Positions 4,040 through 15,086 of a stretch of DNA of 23,923 nt are shown in pieces. The DNA comes from a virus: positions 1 through 23,923 of IMG/VR virus record IMGVR_UViG_3300025769_000840, one strand, 5' to 3'. Made by a program: the position numbers and the translations under genes. Position 1 is the stretch's first letter, and each line of letters opens with the position of its first letter. The notes beneath the pieces are model-generated. The model was not told the origin of the DNA. It did no database searches and saw nothing but the letters and a program-made list of their open reading frames with translations.

Positions 4040-4326
4040 ATGGCATTTAGGAGTGCGGCAGGATACGGTAACCTTCCTAATGGTAACTTTAGTCCAGTTA
4101 TCTATTCTAAGAAGGTACAAACTGCCTTTCGTAAAACCTCAGTAGTTGAGGACATTACAAATAACGACTATATGGGGGAAATTTCCAACTTTGGCGATTC
4201 CGTCCGTATTATTAAAGAGCCAGAAGTCTCTGTTCAGGCTTATTCTCGTGGTACACAGGTTGTCCCACAGGATCTAGATGACGAAGATTTCACTCTTGTT
4301 ATCGATCAGGCAAACTACTTCGCGTT
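4040..4326 (+). CDS. Major capsid protein, exon 1 (N-terminal 95 codons plus 2 bases)
   Basis: First exon of the intron-split capsid gene. It encodes the N-terminal arm (MAFRSAAGYGNLPNGNFSPV) and an EDITNNDYMGEISNFGDSVRI segment typical of phage coat proteins of the HK97-fold class. Without splicing, translation runs into the intron and stops at TAG 4340-4342, giving a 100-residue truncated product. The exon ends in U (4326), as group I introns require. The last five bases GCGTT (4322-4326) pair with GACGC (4342-4346) inside the intron, with a U.G wobble at the splice site. Joined to 5162 the reading continues YFAF-KIDDIEAAHSH without a gap. The ribosome site is AAAGGAG at 4026-4032. Confidence 0.9.
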
Positions 4327-5161
4327 TCAACAAGCTGCGTAGACGCATTTGCGGGTAACCGCATCTAAAGAACTGGGTGAATTGCTGGAAACCCTAAATA
4401 AAGAGTTGACTTCTTAAAACTATCACAATACATATAGAGCAGAGGAGAAAAGTATGAAGACCTGCTCTAAATGTAAAACAACAAAACCCTTAACAGAGTT
4501 TAATAAGACTAAATCCAACAAAGACGGTTTATCATTTTATTGCAAAGTATGTAATCGTAAAACATCTCGTCAGTACAGAGAAAAAAATAAAGATCTGTAC
4601 TACGCTAACCAGAAAGCCCGACGAGAAAATATAAACGTCTTTATCTCTCAAACCTTTTATAGTCTAAGAACAAGGTCTAACAAAAAAGGTTTAGAAGTTA
4701 CTGTTACCTCAGAGTATTTGCTGAAACTTTTAGAAGATTCTAAATTTCAGTGTGAGGTAACCGGTCAGAAAATGGATTTAAAAACTCAGCCGAGAAAGAA
4801 AGCCAACCCTTTTAAAGCCTCTCTAGATAGGATTGACTCTACTAAAGGGTATATTAAAGGGAATGTTAGGTGGGTTTGTTGGGCAGTAAATCAGATGAAA
4901 TCTGATAAAACTGAAGAAGAATTTAAGTTCTGGGTAGAAACTCTTTACAAGGCAATCAGCAGCCAAGCTTGAGCCGGGAGGCTCTTGAAGGTTCAACGAC
5001 TAGGACATACGATCTAGGCCAGATTATGAAGTCCATACGCTCAAGCGAGCGGAAGTGCCCAGCCCCTTATAGGGTGATGATATAGTCTTCTCTGCATAGA
5101 AATATGCAGCAGTTCATAAGAGAACGGGTGGGTTGGTAGCGTAACCCATTGAAAATAAAGG
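4327..5161 (+). ncRNA. Group I self-splicing intron in the capsid gene
   Basis: An 835-nt intron. P1: guide GACGC 4342-4346 pairs with exon GCGTT 4322-4326, with U.G at the cut. P2-like hairpin 4350-4363 is capped by GTAA (GNRA). A P4-region signature GAATTGCTGGAAACCC lies at ~4379-4394. P7: GACTA 4998-5002 pairs with TAGTC 5083-5087, within the familiar phage contexts GTTCAACGACTA and TGATGATATAGTC. Small P7.1/P7.2-like hairpins (GGAC 5003-5006 with GTCC 5031-5034; CGCTC 5038-5042 with GAGCG 5047-5051) suggest subgroup IA. P9-type hairpins include 5092-5109 capped by GAAA. The intron ends in G (5161), as expected. An endonuclease gene fills its middle. Known: such introns splice themselves with guanosine. 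Seen: the pairings. P3 was not resolved by eye. Confidence 0.93.
4454..4972 (+). CDS. Intron-encoded HNH-like homing endonuclease with N-terminal zinc finger
   Basis: 172 residues, sitting between the P4 and P7 parts of the group I intron. The N-terminus has a CxxC...CxxC zinc-binding pair (Cys4/7 and Cys30/33) followed by a basic helix rich in Arg/Lys/Tyr. The C-terminal half holds FQCEVTGQKMDL (98-109) and then SLDRIDSTKGYIKGNVRWV with VNQMK (123-149). This is the LDRID...KGY...N..WV...N signature seen in many phage HNH-type (His-Me finger related) endonucleases. It would cut intronless capsid genes and drive copying of the intron into them. AGAGGAG precedes the ATG. GC is about 30% at 4621-4680 against about 50% in the flanking exons, a sign of independent origin. 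I cannot see the canonical first histidine, so the exact subfamily is uncertain. Confidence 0.85.
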   Translation: MKTCSKCKTTKPLTEFNKTKSNKDGLSFYCKVCNRKTSRQYREKNKDLYYANQKARRENINVFISQTFYSLRTRSNKKGLEVTVTSEYLLKLLEDSKFQCEVTGQKMDLKTQPRKKANPFKASLDRIDSTKGYIKGNVRWVCWAVNQMKSDKTEEEFKFWVETLYKAISSQA

Positions 5162-5930
5162 TAAGATCGATGACATCGAGGCGGCTCACTCTCATGTGAA
5201 CTTTGAATCTCTTGCTACTGATCGTGCTGGTTATCGCCTTCGTGATCAGTTTGACCAGGAGATCTTCGGTTACATGTCCGGTTACAAGCAGGCCGCTCTA
5301 CACGCCAATGCTAGTGCCGCTCGTGTTGCCGCTGACAAGTCTGGTACTGATCCAGTGTCCGCCGATGCTGATGGTCTTCTTGCTTCCATGAAGCTCGACC
5401 TCGGTTCATTCGGTGGTTCTGCTGGTAACTCTATTCCAGTTGGTCAGAACACCAGTGCAATCTCTCCTCTAGCGGTTATTAACCGTATGGCTCGTAAGCT
5501 AGACCAGCAGAACGTTGATCGTGACGGTCGTTGGCTAGTTGTCGATCCGGTCTTTGCCGAGCAGCTTAATGACGAAAACTCAAAGCTTCTAAGCAATGAC
5601 TTTGCCGGTCGTCAGGATGCCGGTGATATCCTCCGTAACGGTCGTATCATCGATGGTATGGTTCGCGGTTTCCGCATCTACATGTCCAACAACCTGCCAA
5701 TCATCGGTACTGGTCCGGGCACTGTTGCTACTGGTGGTTCTTCCAGTAACTACGGTGTTATCATCGCCGGTCACGACTCCGCTGTTGCTACTGCTTCTCA
5801 GATCGAAAAGGTTGAAACCTATCGTGACAATGACAGCTTTAGCGATGTCGTTCGTGGTCTACATCTCTATGGCCGTAAGCTTCTCCGTCCAGAAGCTATC
5901 ACTCGCGCCGTTTACAACGTGTACGAATAA
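5162..5930 (+). CDS. Major capsid protein, exon 2 (residues 96-351)
   Basis: The second exon starts at T5162 and completes the split codon (TT+T = Phe). The frame is open from 5145 onward, and a GTG at 5196 within it (HSH-V-NFESLA) is not a real start. Exon lengths 287 + 769 = 1056 nt, exactly 351 codons plus stop. Diagnostic capsid segments include ESLATDRAGYRLRDQFDQEI, DGRWLVVDPVFAEQL, VRGFRIYMSNNLP and the C-terminal GLHLYGRKLLRPEA. The product forms the icosahedral shell, an HK97-like fold by inference. Codon use is backbone-like (about 50% GC at 5221-5280). Followed after GGGAGG by the probable decoration protein. Confidence 0.92.
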
Positions 5931-5944
5931 GGGAGGTATGAATC

Positions 5945-6433
5945 ATGGCTTACGATCTAACTACTGGTTCTAATACCAACCACATGTCTCGTACCGGTGC
6001 TAATGTTCCTTACACCGTAGAGAAGGTAGTTTCTATGGCTGACGCGGTAACTCTCAAGGGTTCTTCCCTTGCTAATGCCGATGTCCTAGAAGTTATCCCT
6101 GTTCCAGCTAATACCCTCCTTCATGGTGCGGTTGCCTATGTTGAAGACGTTGTTCTCTCAACCGGTGCGACATTCGATCTTGATGTTGCCGGTGGTGATG
6201 ACTTCATCGACGGTGGCGATCTAACCACTGCTGGTTGGGTTGCAGCCGGTACTAACGGCCTACTTCCTTTCGGTGCTAACTCGGTAATTATCACTGCTGC
6301 TGATACTATCGACATGACCCTTGCGGTTACTGGTTCTGTTGCACCTGATACCGGCACTGTTCGCGTAGTTGCTTACATGTCTGATCTGGCTGAAATTCCA
6401 GGTCCGGCTGAAGTTGCTCGTGATCTAGCCTAA
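5945..6433 (+). CDS. Probable capsid decoration / head fibre-like protein
   Basis: 162 residues, Thr/Ala/Val/Gly-rich and predicted all-beta, with few charged helices and no membrane segment. It is 14 bases downstream of the capsid gene with a strong GGGAGG site, which supports high-level expression alongside the capsid protein. Small beta-rich proteins in this position in many phages decorate and stabilise the expanded capsid. The N-terminal sequence (DLTTGSNTNHMSRTGANVPY) looks like an extended arm and the rest like one beta-sandwich. The functional call comes from location and composition only. An alternative is a head-tail joining protein. Confidence 0.6.
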   Translation: MAYDLTTGSNTNHMSRTGANVPYTVEKVVSMADAVTLKGSSLANADVLEVIPVPANTLLHGAVAYVEDVVLSTGATFDLDVAGGDDFIDGGDLTTAGWVAAGTNGLLPFGANSVIITAADTIDMTLAVTGSVAPDTGTVRVVAYMSDLAEIPGPAEVARDLA

Positions 6434-6440
6434 CAAACTT

Positions 6441-6464
6441 GGGGAGATCCTTCGGGATCTCCCC
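6441..6464 (+). terminator. UUCG-capped hairpin terminator after the head genes
   Basis: GGGGAGATCC (6441-6450) pairs perfectly with GGATCTCCCC (6455-6464) around a TTCG tetraloop, an exceptionally stable C(UUCG)G closure. Only TT follows directly, so termination may be partial or the hairpin may mainly protect the head mRNA 3' end. It separates abundant head products from the AT-rich moron and tail genes. Confidence 0.7.
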
Positions 6465-6493
6465 TTGACCTATTTGGAATACTATGATACAAT
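6465..6493 (+). promoter_or_regulatory. Possible sigma70 promoter directly after the hairpin
   Basis: TTGACC (6465-6470) and TACAAT (6488-6493), each 5/6 to consensus, are 17 bp apart. The -10 box overlaps the first codons of the next gene (ATG 6484), so this promoter could express only the tail genes downstream, not that gene's full frame. It may be chance. Confidence 0.3.
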
Positions 6494-7290
6494 TAAACTG
6501 TTCAGTCTCAGAAGATATACTCAAGTCTAACTATGAGAATAACAAGAATAGAAACCTTCCATCTATTTCTAAACTAAAGAACAGTCCACATAAACGTAGC
6601 CAAGAAATTAATATATGTGCTGCTGGACCTAGTATCAAGAAGTTTGAAGAGTTTCTTCGTACATCTAATAACGATATCTTTGCTTCCAAAACTGTAGATT
6701 ATCTTACCTCTATCGGGTGTGATCCTAGATACTCTGTCTCTATCGATCCACGAGAGTCTGGTGATAAAGCCCAACTAAATAAAAAAACCAATTACATTAT
6801 TTCTTCTCAGTGTGATCCTAGTCTATTCGATGCACTAAAGAACTACAAGACATACATGATCGATACTGTCACTTCTAAAACGTGGCGACCCTCTGATAAG
6901 TGTATGTCTGCCGGATCTAACTCCACTGTTCATGCTATTCTACTTTCCATATGGCTTGGTTATAAGAATATCAATCTATTCGGATTTGACTGCGGTTATG
7001 ATAAAGCCTCTGGTAACTATCGAGTAAACCGTGAAAATAAGCATGATGAATCTTGTGAAGAAGTAACCGTATCATGCCCTATAACAAATAAACTTTACCA
7101 TACAACCACTGAGTATATTGGTATGGCTGAGGAAGCCATGAAGATTATCCAGATACTTAGTAATCAAAAAGGTATCAACTTTAATGTCTGCGGCGATACA
7201 TTCCTAACATGTTTTATTCAAAATAATATAAACAAAACCGAGTATATTTTACATGATGACTTTCCTGTTCGCTGGTTAAAGGCTGCTTAA
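6484..7290 (+). CDS. MptE/DUF115-like Rossmann protein (moron)
   Basis: 268 residues. INICAAGPSIKKF (42-54) is a glycine-turn nucleotide-type motif after a beta strand. YSVSIDPRES (83-92) is the second family signature, and AGSNSTVHAILLSIWLGYKN followed by INLFGFDCGY forms the third (~139-168). This order (GxS, then SxDP, then a Gly-Ser/Asn helix, then LxGxDxxY) matches the DUF115 / 6-hydroxymethylpterin-diphosphokinase-like family, which also includes flagellin-glycosylation accessory proteins. The substrate is unknown here; a cell-surface or sugar-modifying role is inference. GC is ~33% (6541-6600; 6781-6840), far below the neighbours. It lies between a hairpin and the tail genes and lacks a good ribosome site (only GGA). 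These traits mark it as a recently acquired moron. Confidence 0.65.
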   Translation: MIQLNCSVSEDILKSNYENNKNRNLPSISKLKNSPHKRSQEINICAAGPSIKKFEEFLRTSNNDIFASKTVDYLTSIGCDPRYSVSIDPRESGDKAQLNKKTNYIISSQCDPSLFDALKNYKTYMIDTVTSKTWRPSDKCMSAGSNSTVHAILLSIWLGYKNINLFGFDCGYDKASGNYRVNRENKHDESCEEVTVSCPITNKLYHTTTEYIGMAEEAMKIIQILSNQKGINFNVCGDTFLTCFIQNNINKTEYILHDDFPVRWLKAA

Positions 7291-10142: not shown

Positions 10143-12253
10143 TGGCAGGTTATACACGGCAATCTCTGGCTCAAATTCTAAACGGTGAGATCGTATCTGC
10201 ACCACCGCTTAACGCTGAGTTTAACCAGATCCTCTCAGCCTTTAATAACTCTACCGGTCATAAGCATGATGGTACTGCTGCCGAAGGTCCACCTATTGAT
10301 CGTATCGCTGACCTAGACCAGAACAATCTTATCTTTGTAGATACCAGTGCTAACCAGATCAACTTCTATGTCGAGTTCAGTGCTGCCCCTGTAGGTCAGA
10401 TCAGTATCCAAGACGGGGCTATCCTACCATTTACTGACAATGACATTGATCTAGGTTCATCCTCATTCGAGTTCAAGGATCTATATATCGACGGTACTGC
10501 TAATATTGATTCTCTGGTAGCTGATACCGCTGATATTAATGCTGGTACAATTGATAATACAGTTATCGGTGCGACCACTCCTGCCGCTGGTACATTTACT
10601 AACCTAACCGTATCTACCGGTAGCACTATTGATTTTACAGGTGCTACAGTTTCTAACGGTGGAACCTTTACCACTGTTACTATCTCAGGCGGATCTATCA
10701 CTGGCATCACTGATCTAGCGATTGCTGATGGCGGTACAGGTGCATCTACTGCTTCTGCCGCCCGGACTAATCTTGGTCTAGCAATCGGGACTAATGTTCA
10801 AGCCTATGATGCCGGTCTACAGTCTATCTCCGGCCTGACCACTTCTGCTAACCAGATGCTATATACCACGGCATCTGATACTTATGCAACCACTAGTCTT
10901 ACCTCAGCCGGTCGGGCATTGCTAGATGATGCTGATGCTTCTGCTCAACGGACTACACTCGGTCTAGGTACGATTGCTACTCAGAATGCTAATAACGTAG
11001 CAATCACAGGCGGGACTATCTCTGGTATCAGTAACCTGTCTGATATCGGTAATGCACTTCCTTACACCTTTAGCACAACCACAACCGACTCTGATCCTGG
11101 TAGCGGTGTACTTAGGCTAAACAATGCCACCCAGAATACCGCTACGGAAATCTATATTGATGATGAAGAAGCTAATGCAGCCGATGTATCTGCTTTCATT
11201 CAGTTGCTATCAGGTGGTAACAATCCTTCATCTGTTCTAGGTACGATCACCCTACGTAAAGAGTTTAGCCCGGAATCTTTCCTACAGTTTAAGGTTACAG
11301 GTGTAACTAACGCTTCCGGTTATACTAAACTCACTATTATTAATACATCTTCAAGCACAGCCAGCCCGTTTTCTAACAGTGACAGTGTATTCCTTGATAT
11401 CAACCTAGCCGGTGATAAGGGTGATCCAGGTGATGTAACCGGTCCCGCCAGTTCAACCGATAATGCTATTGTTCGCTGGGATGGGACAAGTGGGAGTCTG
11501 GTCCAGAATAGCGGTGTTGTTATTGATGATAGCGGTAATATTACTGGTGTTACTTCTATTACCGCTTCCACAGGTAACTTCACTACTGTAGATATTGACG
11601 GTGGTGATATTACAGGTATTACAGATCTAGCCGTAGCCGATGGTGGAACAGGTGCAAGTGACGCTGCCACGGCAAGGAGCAATCTAGGTGCTGGTGATGT
11701 AAACGGTCCATCCTCTTCTACTGACAATACGCTTGTTAGATGGGACGGAACTACCGGTAAAACTATTCAAAACTCTGGTTGGGCGCTATCTGATGCAGAG
11801 GCTTTAACTGCCGGTGGCACTCTCGACATGAACGGCAATACGCTGACGGTCGACGCCGTGACCTTGAGCGGCGTGGTGTCTGGCGGCGACAACGAAGTAA
11901 ACAGGGTGAAGTTCAAAGACATCTCTGAAACAGTAGTCACAGCAAATTCCGGGGCGACCTATACGATTGACTTGGAAAACGGGAACGTTTTCAAGATCAC
12001 GTTGACCGCCAACTGTACCCTCACCTTCAGCAACCCGCCCGCGACGGGAAATTACGGCTCTTTCCGTTTAGAACTTATCCAGGATGGAACTGGCAGCCGC
12101 ACGGCAACCGTGCCTGCATCGGTCGATTGGCCGAATGGAACGGCTCCGACGCTTACGACAACGGCCACGACGGGCAAGGACGTGTTGTTTTTCGAGACGA
12201 CCGACGCCGGGACGACTTGGCTGGGGTACGTGTCGGGTCAGGCGTTCGCCTGA
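10142..12253 (+). CDS. Tail fibre protein with GC-rich exchanged C-terminus
   Basis: 703 residues. The N-terminal anchor (LNAEFNQILSAFNNSTGHKH, then DGTAAEGPPI) is the common virion-attachment domain of short-tailed phage fibres. The shaft has repeats: DLAIADGGTGASTASAARTN (~195-214) recurs as DLAVADGGTGASDAATARSN (~496-515), and an SSTDNxxVRWDGTxG unit occurs twice. A short collagen-like GDKGDPGD (~423-430) joins two parts. The last ~145 residues (from about LTAGGTLDMNGNTLTVD) form a beta-rich tip whose DNA is markedly GC-rich. The trimeric fibre would bind the host surface receptor. The stop TGA overlaps the next ATG (12251-12255), pairing it with the SPRY-like protein. The frame is intact across the composition change, so this is a functional chimera rather than a broken gene. 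Confidence 0.88.
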   Translation: MAGYTRQSLAQILNGEIVSAPPLNAEFNQILSAFNNSTGHKHDGTAAEGPPIDRIADLDQNNLIFVDTSANQINFYVEFSAAPVGQISIQDGAILPFTDNDIDLGSSSFEFKDLYIDGTANIDSLVADTADINAGTIDNTVIGATTPAAGTFTNLTVSTGSTIDFTGATVSNGGTFTTVTISGGSITGITDLAIADGGTGASTASAARTNLGLAIGTNVQAYDAGLQSISGLTTSANQMLYTTASDTYATTSLTSAGRALLDDADASAQRTTLGLGTIATQNANNVAITGGTISGISNLSDIGNALPYTFSTTTTDSDPGSGVLRLNNATQNTATEIYIDDEEANAADVSAFIQLLSGGNNPSSVLGTITLRKEFSPESFLQFKVTGVTNASGYTKLTIINTSSSTASPFSNSDSVFLDINLAGDKGDPGDVTGPASSTDNAIVRWDGTSGSLVQNSGVVIDDSGNITGVTSITASTGNFTTVDIDGGDITGITDLAVADGGTGASDAATARSNLGAGDVNGPSSSTDNTLVRWDGTTGKTIQNSGWALSDAEALTAGGTLDMNGNTLTVDAVTLSGVVSGGDNEVNRVKFKDISETVVTANSGATYTIDLENGNVFKITLTANCTLTFSNPPATGNYGSFRLELIQDGTGSRTATVPASVDWPNGTAPTLTTTATTGKDVLFFETTDAGTTWLGYVSGQAFA

Positions 12254-12831
12254 TGCCGGTCGGACACGCAAAACTCGTCGGGTTGGGAAGCAAAGTTCCG
12301 CTGGTCCAGACCACCTGGAATCCCGCGGACACGGACGGCAACATTACACTGTCCAGCGGAAACCGTGTCGCTAGCATAAACAACTCGGCAGGCGTCTATA
12401 AAGGAACACGATCCATCAAGCAAACGGATGGGTCGAACAAATTGTACGGCGAAATCACTATCGGAACGACGGTGGCCAACAACATTTTTGGCGTTGGAAC
12501 CTCGACTGTTTCACTTTCGAGCGGCTACCTAGGAAGCACCTCGGGTGGCTGGGGGGTGCAGTACAACGGTGACAAGGTGCACAACAATATCTTCTCATCG
12601 TACACGGGCGGCCCGATCACGAACGGCGACATATTTATGGTGCGATTTGATAGCACCACGGGGGATTTGTACTTCGGTCGAAACGGGTCGTGGTTTGACG
12701 GAGGGTCGCCAATATTTACAGGTGTCTCGGCGAACGTATTTTTGTTCGCGTCAATGTCGGGGCTAGCTTCGGCAACACTTGCCGCAAACCTAACCTACCC
12801 TGTTCCGTCTGGCTATGAAATTTGGACCTAG
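12253..12831 (+). CDS. SPRY-like (concanavalin-fold) fibre-associated protein
   Basis: 192 residues. I choose ATG 12253 because it overlaps the fibre stop (TGATG). An upstream in-frame ATG at 12127 would overlap the fibre by 42 codons and is unlikely. The C-terminal ~140 residues resemble a SPRY/B30.2 domain: GGWGVQYNGDKVHNN, then NGDIFMVRFDSTTGDLYFGR leading to NGSW, then a final FLFASMSG strand. In phages such domains sit at fibre tips and bind surface ligands, so this is probably a second receptor-binding subunit or a tip cap. The DNA is GC-rich like the adjoining fibre tip, and the two probably moved together. A weak point is that no SPRY ligand-binding residue can be assigned. Confidence 0.72.
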   Translation: MPVGHAKLVGLGSKVPLVQTTWNPADTDGNITLSSGNRVASINNSAGVYKGTRSIKQTDGSNKLYGEITIGTTVANNIFGVGTSTVSLSSGYLGSTSGGWGVQYNGDKVHNNIFSSYTGGPITNGDIFMVRFDSTTGDLYFGRNGSWFDGGSPIFTGVSANVFLFASMSGLASATLAANLTYPVPSGYEIWT

Positions 12832-12840
12832 GAGGTAGCG

Positions 12841-13497
12841 ATGTTTGAGCACTCTACGATTGTTGTTCGCCACGACGACGGTGCTTACCAAGCACACGGC
12901 AAGGTGCGCGACATGGCGCCGCACGCCTTGTTCCCGCGCCTGATCCCACTGGCGACGCTGACCGAACTGTCTCTGGCGCCAGTGTCGTTTGTGACCACCC
13001 TTGGAGAGGGCGAGGTCTGGGATGGCGATCCCGATATCCCGAGCGGACAACTGGCGGCTTCTGGATCATGGGAGTACGGGCGTCCGAAAAGAGCGATGAA
13101 TGAGGTTGAGCAGCTTGCCGAGCTAGAGCGCCTGAAAGACGCGAAGAAAGCCTCTATCACGGCGCGTTTCCGCGATTTGATCGCAGAAGGCGTGACCGTC
13201 GACGGGGAGGTGATTGACCTATCTCCTAGCGGGTTCACGACACTGGAGCAAGCTCTTAGTGTCGTCCCGGTCGAGGCTGTTACAGCACGCGGGGCGCGGA
13301 TCAGTTTGCCGAACCAAGCGGCGGTCAACGCGATCCTGGCGGCGGCACGAGCGCGCTACAAGGCACTCGTTCAACGAGAGGCGGCGCTGTTCGACGCGGT
13401 CGACGCGGTGACTACGTGGGCGGGTCGGGGCACCCTCGATAATATCGACGCCAATGACGGGTCCATCGGCGGCGTCGAGTCTTGGCCTGCGCCATGA
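12841..13497 (+). CDS. DUF4376-like fibre-linked protein (possible tail fibre assembly factor)
   Basis: 218 residues with a good AGGAGG site nine bases upstream of the SPRY gene's end. The N-terminal half (VVRHDDGAYQAHGKVRD; LSLAPVSFVTTLGEGEVWDG) is beta-like. The C-terminal half (DAKKASITARFRDLIAEGV, then a helical stretch ending LDNIDANDGSIGGVESWP) matches the general DUF4376 pattern of an R/K-rich helix, a central segment and a terminal helix ending near GWP, which is common in genes directly after phage tail fibres. Its role is probably fibre assembly or attachment. The composition is GC-rich, so it belongs to the acquired cassette. Family assignment is moderate; chaperone function is inference from position. 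Confidence 0.65.
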   Translation: MFEHSTIVVRHDDGAYQAHGKVRDMAPHALFPRLIPLATLTELSLAPVSFVTTLGEGEVWDGDPDIPSGQLAASGSWEYGRPKRAMNEVEQLAELERLKDAKKASITARFRDLIAEGVTVDGEVIDLSPSGFTTLEQALSVVPVEAVTARGARISLPNQAAVNAILAAARARYKALVQREAALFDAVDAVTTWAGRGTLDNIDANDGSIGGVESWPAP

Positions 13498-13522
13498 CAA
13501 AGCCGTAACCAGGGCAGGTGAT

Positions 13523-13970: not shown

Positions 13971-15086
13971 ATGCCTACAGCAGTAAACGGGCAATTGTAT
14001 TATTCACAAGCAGAAGTACAGGCTGGTCTACCACAGTACCATGCAGCACTTCGCCAAGCAACGGGGTATGGTGGTCAGTTCTCTGCCGATCCCACCCAGA
14101 GGTTTCAACAGTATATTGCCGGTGCAACCCCGGAACAACAGGCCGCATATAACGCTCTGTCTAACATATATGGTTCTGGTTCCTTCGCGCCCGGTACAAC
14201 CACGGTCGTACAATCTAATCAGGCTCAACAGGCACCTATTGATTTTGAACCAATTCAGACAGGTATCTCAGATCTGGGTACTGGTCAGCAAGGTCTTATG
14301 GCTGGTCAGCAAGGTCTTATGGCTGGTCAGCAAGGTCTTATGGCTGGTCAAGAAACCCTACAGACAGGTATCTCAGGTCTAGGTACAGGTCAGCAAGGTC
14401 TTATGGCTGGTCAAGAAACCCTACAGACAGGTATCTCAGGTCTAGGTACAGGTCAGCAAGATATTCAGACAGGTATCTCAGGTCTAGGTACAGGTCAGCA
14501 AGCCCTTATCGGCGGTCAGTTGGCACTAGGCGAAGGTCAAGGTGCTATCATGGGTGCCGTAGGTGCTCCTGCTGAGGGTCAGCCCTCAACCTTGTTCGCA
14601 GGTCAGGCTGGTCTTATGGGTGGTCAACAGGCACTAGGTCAGCAACTAACAGGCGGTATTCAGGATATCACTGGTGCAGTCGGTGGTGTATCTCAGAACA
14701 TTGATGCACTAGAGCGGGCCGCTGAACAGTATCGTCGGGAAGCACAACGTCAGCGTGCCCAGATCCAGACATCAGGTGTAGAAGGTCGGGAACAACTTTC
14801 TCAGCAGGTTTCCGATGTAGGTCAGCAAGTTAATACCGGTGTTGAACAACAGCGTGCTCTTATGGGTGGTATGGCTGCTCCTGTCGCCGCTATGGGTGCT
14901 ACAGCAGGTATTCAACCTGGAGGGGCTACTCAGGCTGCTACTCAATATGCACAAACCCAGAAGTTTACTCCCCCGGCTCAAGGTCAGCAAACCCTTATGG
15001 GTCCGTTGGGTCCAATGACAATCGATCCACGAGACCAAGTAACCCAGCCAGTGTATTCATCCGGCTTAATGAATTATCCTGTATAA
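13971..15086 (+). CDS. Internal virion protein with heptad tandem repeats
   Basis: 371 residues. The N-terminal ~95 residues are ordered-looking (YYSQAEVQAGLPQYHAALRQ; TPEQQAAYNALSNIYG). Residues ~98-195 are 14 consecutive heptads such as GQQGLMA, GQETLQT and GISGLGT, which place Gly at position 1 and Leu/Ile in the core. Then follows a longer helical stretch (LERAAEQYRREAQRQRAQIQ) and a disordered Pro/Gln-rich C-terminus. Gln, Gly and Met content and position (first of five probable ejection genes) suggest an internal core or ejection protein. The start follows the holin-like stop by four bases (TGAGATCATG). No enzyme motif is seen. Confidence 0.65.
   Translation: MPTAVNGQLYYSQAEVQAGLPQYHAALRQATGYGGQFSADPTQRFQQYIAGATPEQQAAYNALSNIYGSGSFAPGTTTVVQSNQAQQAPIDFEPIQTGISDLGTGQQGLMAGQQGLMAGQQGLMAGQETLQTGISGLGTGQQGLMAGQETLQTGISGLGTGQQDIQTGISGLGTGQQALIGGQLALGEGQGAIMGAVGAPAEGQPSTLFAGQAGLMGGQQALGQQLTGGIQDITGAVGGVSQNIDALERAAEQYRREAQRQRAQIQTSGVEGREQLSQQVSDVGQQVNTGVEQQRALMGGMAAPVAAMGATAGIQPGGATQAATQYAQTQKFTPPAQGQQTLMGPLGPMTIDPRDQVTQPVYSSGLMNYPV
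14262..14555 (+). repeat. 21-bp tandem array (14 heptad units)
   Basis: Fourteen consecutive 21-bp units with perfect phase. Units 2-4 (14283-14345) are identical GGTCAGCAAGGTCTTATGGCT copies. A 63-bp three-unit block is then duplicated exactly (14325-14387 and 14388-14450). Flanking units are diverged. The exact copies imply recent unequal exchange or slippage, so copy number may vary between relatives. Confidence 0.95.

Follow-up and report, generated by a model that had tools for sequence, protein, structure and literature searches.

A single open reading frame in the middle of the virion operon of an HMO-2011-type phage probably encodes a single-domain DUF115/Maf glycosyltransferase, similar to nonulosonic-acid transferases, which would place a sugar onto a virion protein late in infection; its catalysis, sugar donor, acceptor and biological benefit are what we infer. 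Judged by its distribution the gene is an old and clade-specific part of the operon and no recent arrival, because it is kept in the same slot across close relatives and is absent from distant ones.

The window, i.e., the whole stretch of DNA analyzed, is the virus record IMGVR_UViG_3300025769_000840 with a length of 23,923 bases. The open reading frame at 6484-7290 on the plus strand starts with ATG and has 268 codons. The gene order of the record is major capsid protein (MCP), cement, hairpin, DUF115 gene, adaptor, a 711-aa protein and tail fibre, with the following features:

5172-5930, plus strand: major capsid protein gene, second exon
5945-6433, plus strand: capsid cement (decoration) protein with a beta-sandwich fold, its model matching GP4, Pam1 and KHP30
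6441-6464, plus strand: hairpin with a 10 bp stem and a UUCG loop, between the cement gene and the DUF115 gene
6476-6478, plus strand: GGA, weakly Shine-Dalgarno-like
6484-7290, plus strand: DUF115/Maf-like protein, predicted single-domain glycosyltransferase, 268 aa
7291-8007, plus strand: head-tail adaptor, SU10 adaptor family PF24175
10142-12253, plus strand: tail fibre

With the cement gene upstream and the head-tail adaptor downstream, the gene does lie between the head and tail blocks, as had been proposed in an earlier sequence-only reading of this DNA. The model of the cement protein (pLDDT 74.5) has capsid chains as its best structural matches, namely GP4 (8h89, Z 11.9), Pam1 (7eel, Z 11.1) and KHP30 (7dn2, Z 10.0), and matches with Z 9.0 a KHP40 chain whose title names a trimeric cement protein. 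The MCP, compared by means of the L003 sequence in which it is unbroken, shares 63% identity with its counterpart in Roseobacter phage CRP-345 and 62% with the one in Puniceispirillum phage HMO-2011. The adaptor of the record matches 27 GenBank phage records, duplicates among them. By its homologous MCP, its adaptor and its gene order the record is that of an HMO-2011-type phage, a type of marine podovirus.

Some further observations were made on the record. In the window the first MCP exon ends near 4326 and the second starts near 5172, whereas the MCP of L003 is uninterrupted. The intervening stretch 4327-5171 resembles a group I intron (RF00028, 44.6 bits, E 6e-10), there being no RF00028 match in this intron at the gathering threshold (score 50), and it contains an endonuclease VII-like open reading frame (4454-4972). 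The 371-aa protein encoded at 13971-15086 has internal repeats of the GLMAGQ / LQTGISGL type and gave no PHROG match at E up to 0.001. Two stretches, 1501-2100 and 12001-13500, are GC-rich (53-67% in 600-base windows, the record having 46.5%). No anti-phage defence families were found.

The membership in the MptE-like/DUF115 family (PF01973), which the sequence-only reading had suggested, was confirmed by a profile search with 58.1 bits against a cut-off of 34.6 over residues 20-174, and the family is matched by all 16 aligned orthologues (E up to 1; best E 4.1e-19). NCBIfam gave no match for the 268-aa protein, and the phage proteins had no relevant counterpart when the PDB was searched by sequence. 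We obtained an AlphaFold2 model of the 268-aa protein from 16 sequences (pLDDT 74, pTM 0.77); its confidence is middling, and four further AlphaFold2 models have a mean pLDDT of 70 down to 48. The best structural match of the model is the Magnetospirillum Maf glycosyltransferase (5mu5, Z 16.9, 212 residues, rmsd 3.5), ahead of the HPPK/MptE protein of M. jannaschii (8sd5, Z 13.5, 175 residues). Further matches are SteA (Z 10.1), CstI (Z 9.6), thiamine pyrophosphokinase (9.4) and human ST8SiaIII (9.2); the sialyltransferases together cover Z 7.6-9.6, the Cst chains among them 8.3-9.6. Foldseek ranked a human sialyltransferase at the top in the PDB (E 1.1e-4), and the nearest viral models were proteins of uncultured phages named 'MptE-like' (E 1.7e-14). 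The PHROG family of alpha-2,3-sialyltransferases was matched weakly by 16 of the 16 members of alignment A3 (E up to 0.1, best 3.4e-5).

These matches were complemented by comparisons with two reference sets, five Maf proteins from bacteria and ten MptE-like proteins from archaea, the latter being counted as MptE by family and motif and not by assay. An hhalign comparison of the phage profile with the five bacterial Maf proteins, which covered the Maf profile only, resulted in a probability of 95.4 (E 1.8e-8, 140 columns). In a maximum-likelihood tree with 28 rows a 100/100 branch parts the phage, Maf and alphaproteobacterial proteins from MptE. Two alphaproteobacterial proteins group with the phage rows at 95/98, and the phage-only group, which includes one long row (L108), has a support of 94/93. 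By fold, profile comparison and tree the phage protein thus appears nearer to the Maf flagellin glycosyltransferases, which place nonulosonic acid onto Ser/Thr residues of flagellin, than to archaeal MptE.

One of the two alphaproteobacterial proteins is encoded at L208:8250-9056 (268 aa, PF01973 57.5 bits), the other being that of L209. The gene of L208 is situated between a terminase-like open reading frame (PF03237, 23.5 bits, cut-off 22) and a portal gene (PF12236, E 7e-131), and it adjoins two sulfotransferase open reading frames (PF00685, PF13469; L208:6485-8098) as well as an open reading frame with a sub-threshold LamG match. This prophage-like setting, known as one case for L208 alone, supports a role in glycan modification which would be tied to the virion module.

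To describe the distribution of the gene we rely on two overlapping sets of loci in which many contigs are identical. A search seeded with the adaptor gave 44 loci. All 21 loci with an adaptor identity of at least 68% carry the gene directly upstream of the adaptor (two of them, L011 and L018, having only the first ~60 adaptor residues), and this presence across relatives contradicts the recent moron of the sequence-only reading. In the remaining 23 loci no match to the gene was found; five of these (L039, L041, L043, L047, and L050) start so close to the adaptor that they are uninformative. With the cement protein as the seed, 53 loci were obtained, 43 of which were analyzed, the 10 others being already known from earlier searches. 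Here the gene is present in 37 of the 40 analyzed loci with a cement identity of at least 52%, and the other three (L107, L128, and L134) stop at the cement gene or no more than ~120 bases from it; no match to the gene was seen in the 3 loci with 27-37% cement identity. The pooled loci comprise 32 distinct upstream sequences with the gene, 31 without and 3 that are too short, a count which leaves out L093, L141 and the reference loci L177-L209 and in which some of the 32 were found via the gene itself. The adaptors of the gene-bearing loci are 58-100% identical to that of the window, except for L108 (38%), whose slot contains a 307-aa version with 28% identity to the protein of the window, and the adaptors of the loci without the gene are at most 49% identical.

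In the phages without the gene the slot is either empty, as in HMO-2011, or occupied by other open reading frames. A PF01973 match is found nowhere in the records of CRP-345, HMO-2011 and phiM6, and gp55 of CRP-345, which occupies the slot and likewise has 268 aa, has no Pfam match at E up to 1. In the distant relatives L040, L044, L045, L048, and L049 the slot contains one or two small open reading frames (62-83 aa) that are very AT-rich (27-31% GC). At L070:1681-2427 the DUF115 frame breaks near its end, leaving 248 aa, which could be real or a sequencing error. Outside these loci tblastn detected no match to the protein in plasmids, and a search for related loci in bacterial genomes revealed no close relative; a profile search detected distant relatives in 4 of the 289 genomes that belong to the class of G008. 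For four pairs of orthologues we could determine dN/dS values between 0.08 and 0.15 (0.08 for the window with L008 and with L006, 0.15 for L008 with L018 and 0.12 for L026 with L113), dS being saturated in 6 of the 10 pairs. Judged by these ratios the DUF115 gene is under purifying selection.

Individual alleles of the gene do move. The gene of L018 has only 67-68% nucleotide identity to eleven relatives, whereas its flanks are 87-89% (cement gene) and 91-98% (first 180 adaptor bases) identical to theirs. The opposite is seen when L026 and L027 are compared with L112 and L113, the gene being 92-93% and the flanks 74-80% identical. Among the 561 pairs of 34 loci the gene lies at least 12 points below both flanks in 18 and at least 8 points above them in 7; both thresholds were picked post hoc after inspection of the data, and the pairs are not independent and represent a few events repeated over near-identical loci rather than 25 events. 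In sliding windows the identity changes close to the ends of the gene, after the hairpin and before the adaptor begins. These identity profiles indicate that alleles are exchanged in place, nearly at the gene borders.

We then compared the allele with the tail fibre. Of 23 loci entered, 22 had 330 or more fibre residues, and 17 distinct ones among these were used; contig ends cut off some of the fibres. When the backbone (cement, adaptor, and 711-aa protein) is allowed for, the identity of the gene and the similarity of the fibre C-terminus (beyond residue 150) have a partial rank correlation of 0.44, which was reached in none of 2000 label permutations; the link was first seen and then tested on overlapping loci. 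The partial correlation of the backbone with the fibre C-terminus is 0.45, and for the first 90 fibre residues the value has the opposite sign (-0.39). In the 45 pairs formed by the 10 loci of the L026-like clade, the gene gives a rank correlation of 0.65 and the backbone one of 0.33; the gene-fibre partial value is 0.60 (36 of 5000 permutations). The clearest illustration in this comparison is L211: its backbone and fibre anchor resemble those of L216 and L217 (92%, 0.94-0.95), whereas its gene (89-96%) and its fibre C-terminus (0.84-0.96) resemble those of L210, L212, L213, and L214, to which its backbone is only 77-81% identical. A sliding profile of L211 against L217 has two separate drops, one at the DUF115 gene and one in the fibre from about position 5400. 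The same clade also has exceptions, L026/L217 with 94% for the gene and 0.67 for the fibre C-terminus and L026/L214 with 70% and 0.75. In the clade of the window the link is not seen: the gene identities and fibre C-terminus scores are 71% and 0.77 for the window and L025, 85% and 0.72 for the window and L009 and 100% and 0.64 for L022 and L023. These comparisons are suggestive of an allele class that, in one clade but not in the other, tends to move together with the fibre C-terminus and not with the intervening genes. As to the fibre gene itself, its open reading frame, which ends at 12253, overlaps an open reading frame with a SPRY domain (12127-12831); in L021 the fibre frame has 1067 aa as compared to 703, and both frames may be one gene in relatives.

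A virion glycosyltransferase could act as follows. The protein would be made with the late operon, just after the capsid genes, would take a nucleotide-activated sugar made by the host, CMP-nonulosonic acid or a similar compound, and would attach the sugar in the cytoplasm to a virion protein, most likely the tail fibre and less likely the cement protein. As acceptors we would rank the fibre first, the host surface second and the cement protein last; the cement protein is disfavoured because its gene does not move with the allele where alleles have been swapped. Neither NeuB families (0 of 12) nor CMP-sugar synthetase families (0 of 12) were found in related records, for none of which completeness is known, and since the sugar-synthesis families are missing from these perhaps incomplete records a donor supplied by the host would be the simpler idea. 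The suggestion of the sequence-only reading that virion or host surface sugars could be modified fits the Maf-like fold and profile, the activity being a predicted one.

It is conceivable, and we put it forward tentatively, that this minimal Maf-type nonulosonic-acid transferase is a virion glycosyltransferase whose alleles are swapped as a cassette and matched to the receptor-binding tip of the fibre. Recombination in these phages would then affect two spots, the gene and the C-terminal part of the fibre, and would leave the adaptor and the other intervening genes in place. As an outcome the fibre would always be paired with the transferase that glycosylates it, or with the host glycan that it needs. 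If this were true, a Maf-type enzyme encoded among the virion genes of HMO-2011-like phages would connect a sugar pathway of flagella with the chemistry of the virion surface and with host range. The co-segregation of gene and fibre makes the idea of virion glycosylation directly testable.

The glycosyltransferase could instead act late in infection on the surface of the host (flagellin, LPS or capsule) and mask the receptor, which would spare the progeny from being trapped on debris or would exclude other phages; the link to the fibre would then reflect a shared host or receptor. In the parts of PMC11339370 consulted Maf enzymes are described to act on flagellin, and a shared host would explain the co-segregation with the fibre C-terminus just as well; the nearly gene-exact swapping of alleles is also in line with such a role. 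The gene is, however, embedded within the virion operon and does not belong to an early or accessory region, and tblastn in 50,697 GenBank phage records, HMO-2011-type alphaproteobacterial isolates included, detected no relative of the protein. We regard a host-surface enzyme as rather unlikely.

Still less probable seems a member of the fold without catalytic activity that serves as assembly or regulatory factor between head and tail. Its fixed place beside the adaptor and the fold match to SteA, the title of which names a cell division regulator, would agree with such a function, but HMO-2011 makes virions without the gene, as its gene order implies, and many polar residues are invariant (K69, D88, S107, Q109, S145, N146, T148, D169, and R183).

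We reject a pterin kinase, and a pterin or thiamine-type pyrophosphokinase with true MptE activity is highly improbable: the name of the Pfam model and the fold match to 8sd5 speak for the pterin phosphorylation of the sequence-only reading, but the archaeal motifs DLDG (10/10 archaeal rows of the joint alignment), HGDN (9/10) and DGDR (10/10) occur in none of the 10 phage rows, and the 100/100 branch sets these apart from MptE.

The hairpin upstream of the gene is well supported, as the sequence-only reading had noticed. The stretch 6431-6500 folds with z -4.8 and none of 200 shuffles is as stable, and the hairpin forms in all 14 orthologous junctions folded besides that of the window. HMO-2011, L147, and MW202701, all without the DUF115 gene, have it where the cement gene adjoins the adaptor. 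It is therefore a backbone element, and we reject its being part of a mobile gene. In phage T7 a terminator stands between the capsid gene and the adaptor gene. The hairpin has a similar place and for this reason is likely an attenuator or terminator-like element of the backbone causing attenuation after the capsid genes. On the plus strand of the window there is no clear T run after the stem, a terminator-like match being found on the minus strand only, whereas a T run follows the stem in HMO-2011.

A recently acquired AT-rich moron has hardly any probability left. It is true that the gene is nearly the lowest-GC stretch of the record (35.7% as compared to 46.5% for the record; equally low values occur in 0.13% of its 807-base windows taken in steps of 10 bases) and that the slot of HMO-2011 is empty, but the gene has the same slot in close relatives with sequence identities reaching down to 28-44%, the four orthologues measured are equally AT-rich (35-39% GC), selection on the gene is purifying, and phages without the gene have the hairpin as well. 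The sequence-only reading had taken a GC content of ~33%, the lack of a good ribosome site and the hairpin as signs of recent acquisition. The gene is indeed AT-rich, with a figure somewhat above the one given, and the ribosome site of the window is indeed weak (GGA, 5 bases before the ATG), but at the same position L026 and L027 have AGGAG and L008, L018, and L025 have GGAG. These checks do not confirm any of the three features as such a sign. The term moron is adequate in the loose sense that distant HMO-2011-type relatives are without the gene; its recent arrival in the clade is contradicted by these comparisons, while individual alleles do move.

The DUF115 family, its 'MptE-like' members in uncultured phages and the glycosylation of phage virions (the latter according to the parts of PMC12619734 consulted) are already known. 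In the literature searched we did not meet the clade-conserved slot, the affinity to the Maf side, the allele exchange that is nearly gene-exact or a possible coupling with the tip of the fibre. A DUF115 gene in this setting was not described in the titles and abstract starts among the matches listed, and a term search for 'MptE', 'DUF115' and 'glycosyltransferase' had no result in the main text of a paper on HMO-2011-type phages (PMC9038755). PMC12839542, which came up as a candidate for a DUF115 phage paper, concerns another family, DUF1156.

Among the known systems, mycobacteriophages with glycosylated virions carry glycans on capsid and tail proteins (Freeman et al. 2023, as cited in the parts of PMC12619734 consulted), whereas here glycosylation is predicted. 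For bacterial CstI and CstII (GT42) and the mammalian sialyltransferases there are the fold matches and the weak PHROG match of the phage protein, whereas the PDB gave no significant match by sequence. With archaeal MptE/HPPK (8SD5), a 6-hydroxymethyldihydropterin diphosphokinase, the phage protein has the Pfam family name and the fold in common, but the three archaeal motifs are absent from it. HMO-2011 resembles the record in the order of MCP, cement and adaptor and differs from it by the missing DUF115 gene. The solved Maf protein consists of three domains, the central one being CstII-like, and one Maf enzyme tolerates several nonulosonic acids as donors (both from the parts of PMC11339370 consulted). 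The five Maf reference frames have 578-671 aa as compared to 268 aa for the phage protein, from which the N- and C-terminal domains of Maf are missing, and, unlike Maf, the phage gene is part of a virion operon. What the phage protein and Maf (5MU5) have in common is the central PF01973 domain, the similarity of their profiles and the fold, the Maf fold comprising residues 1-249 of the model.
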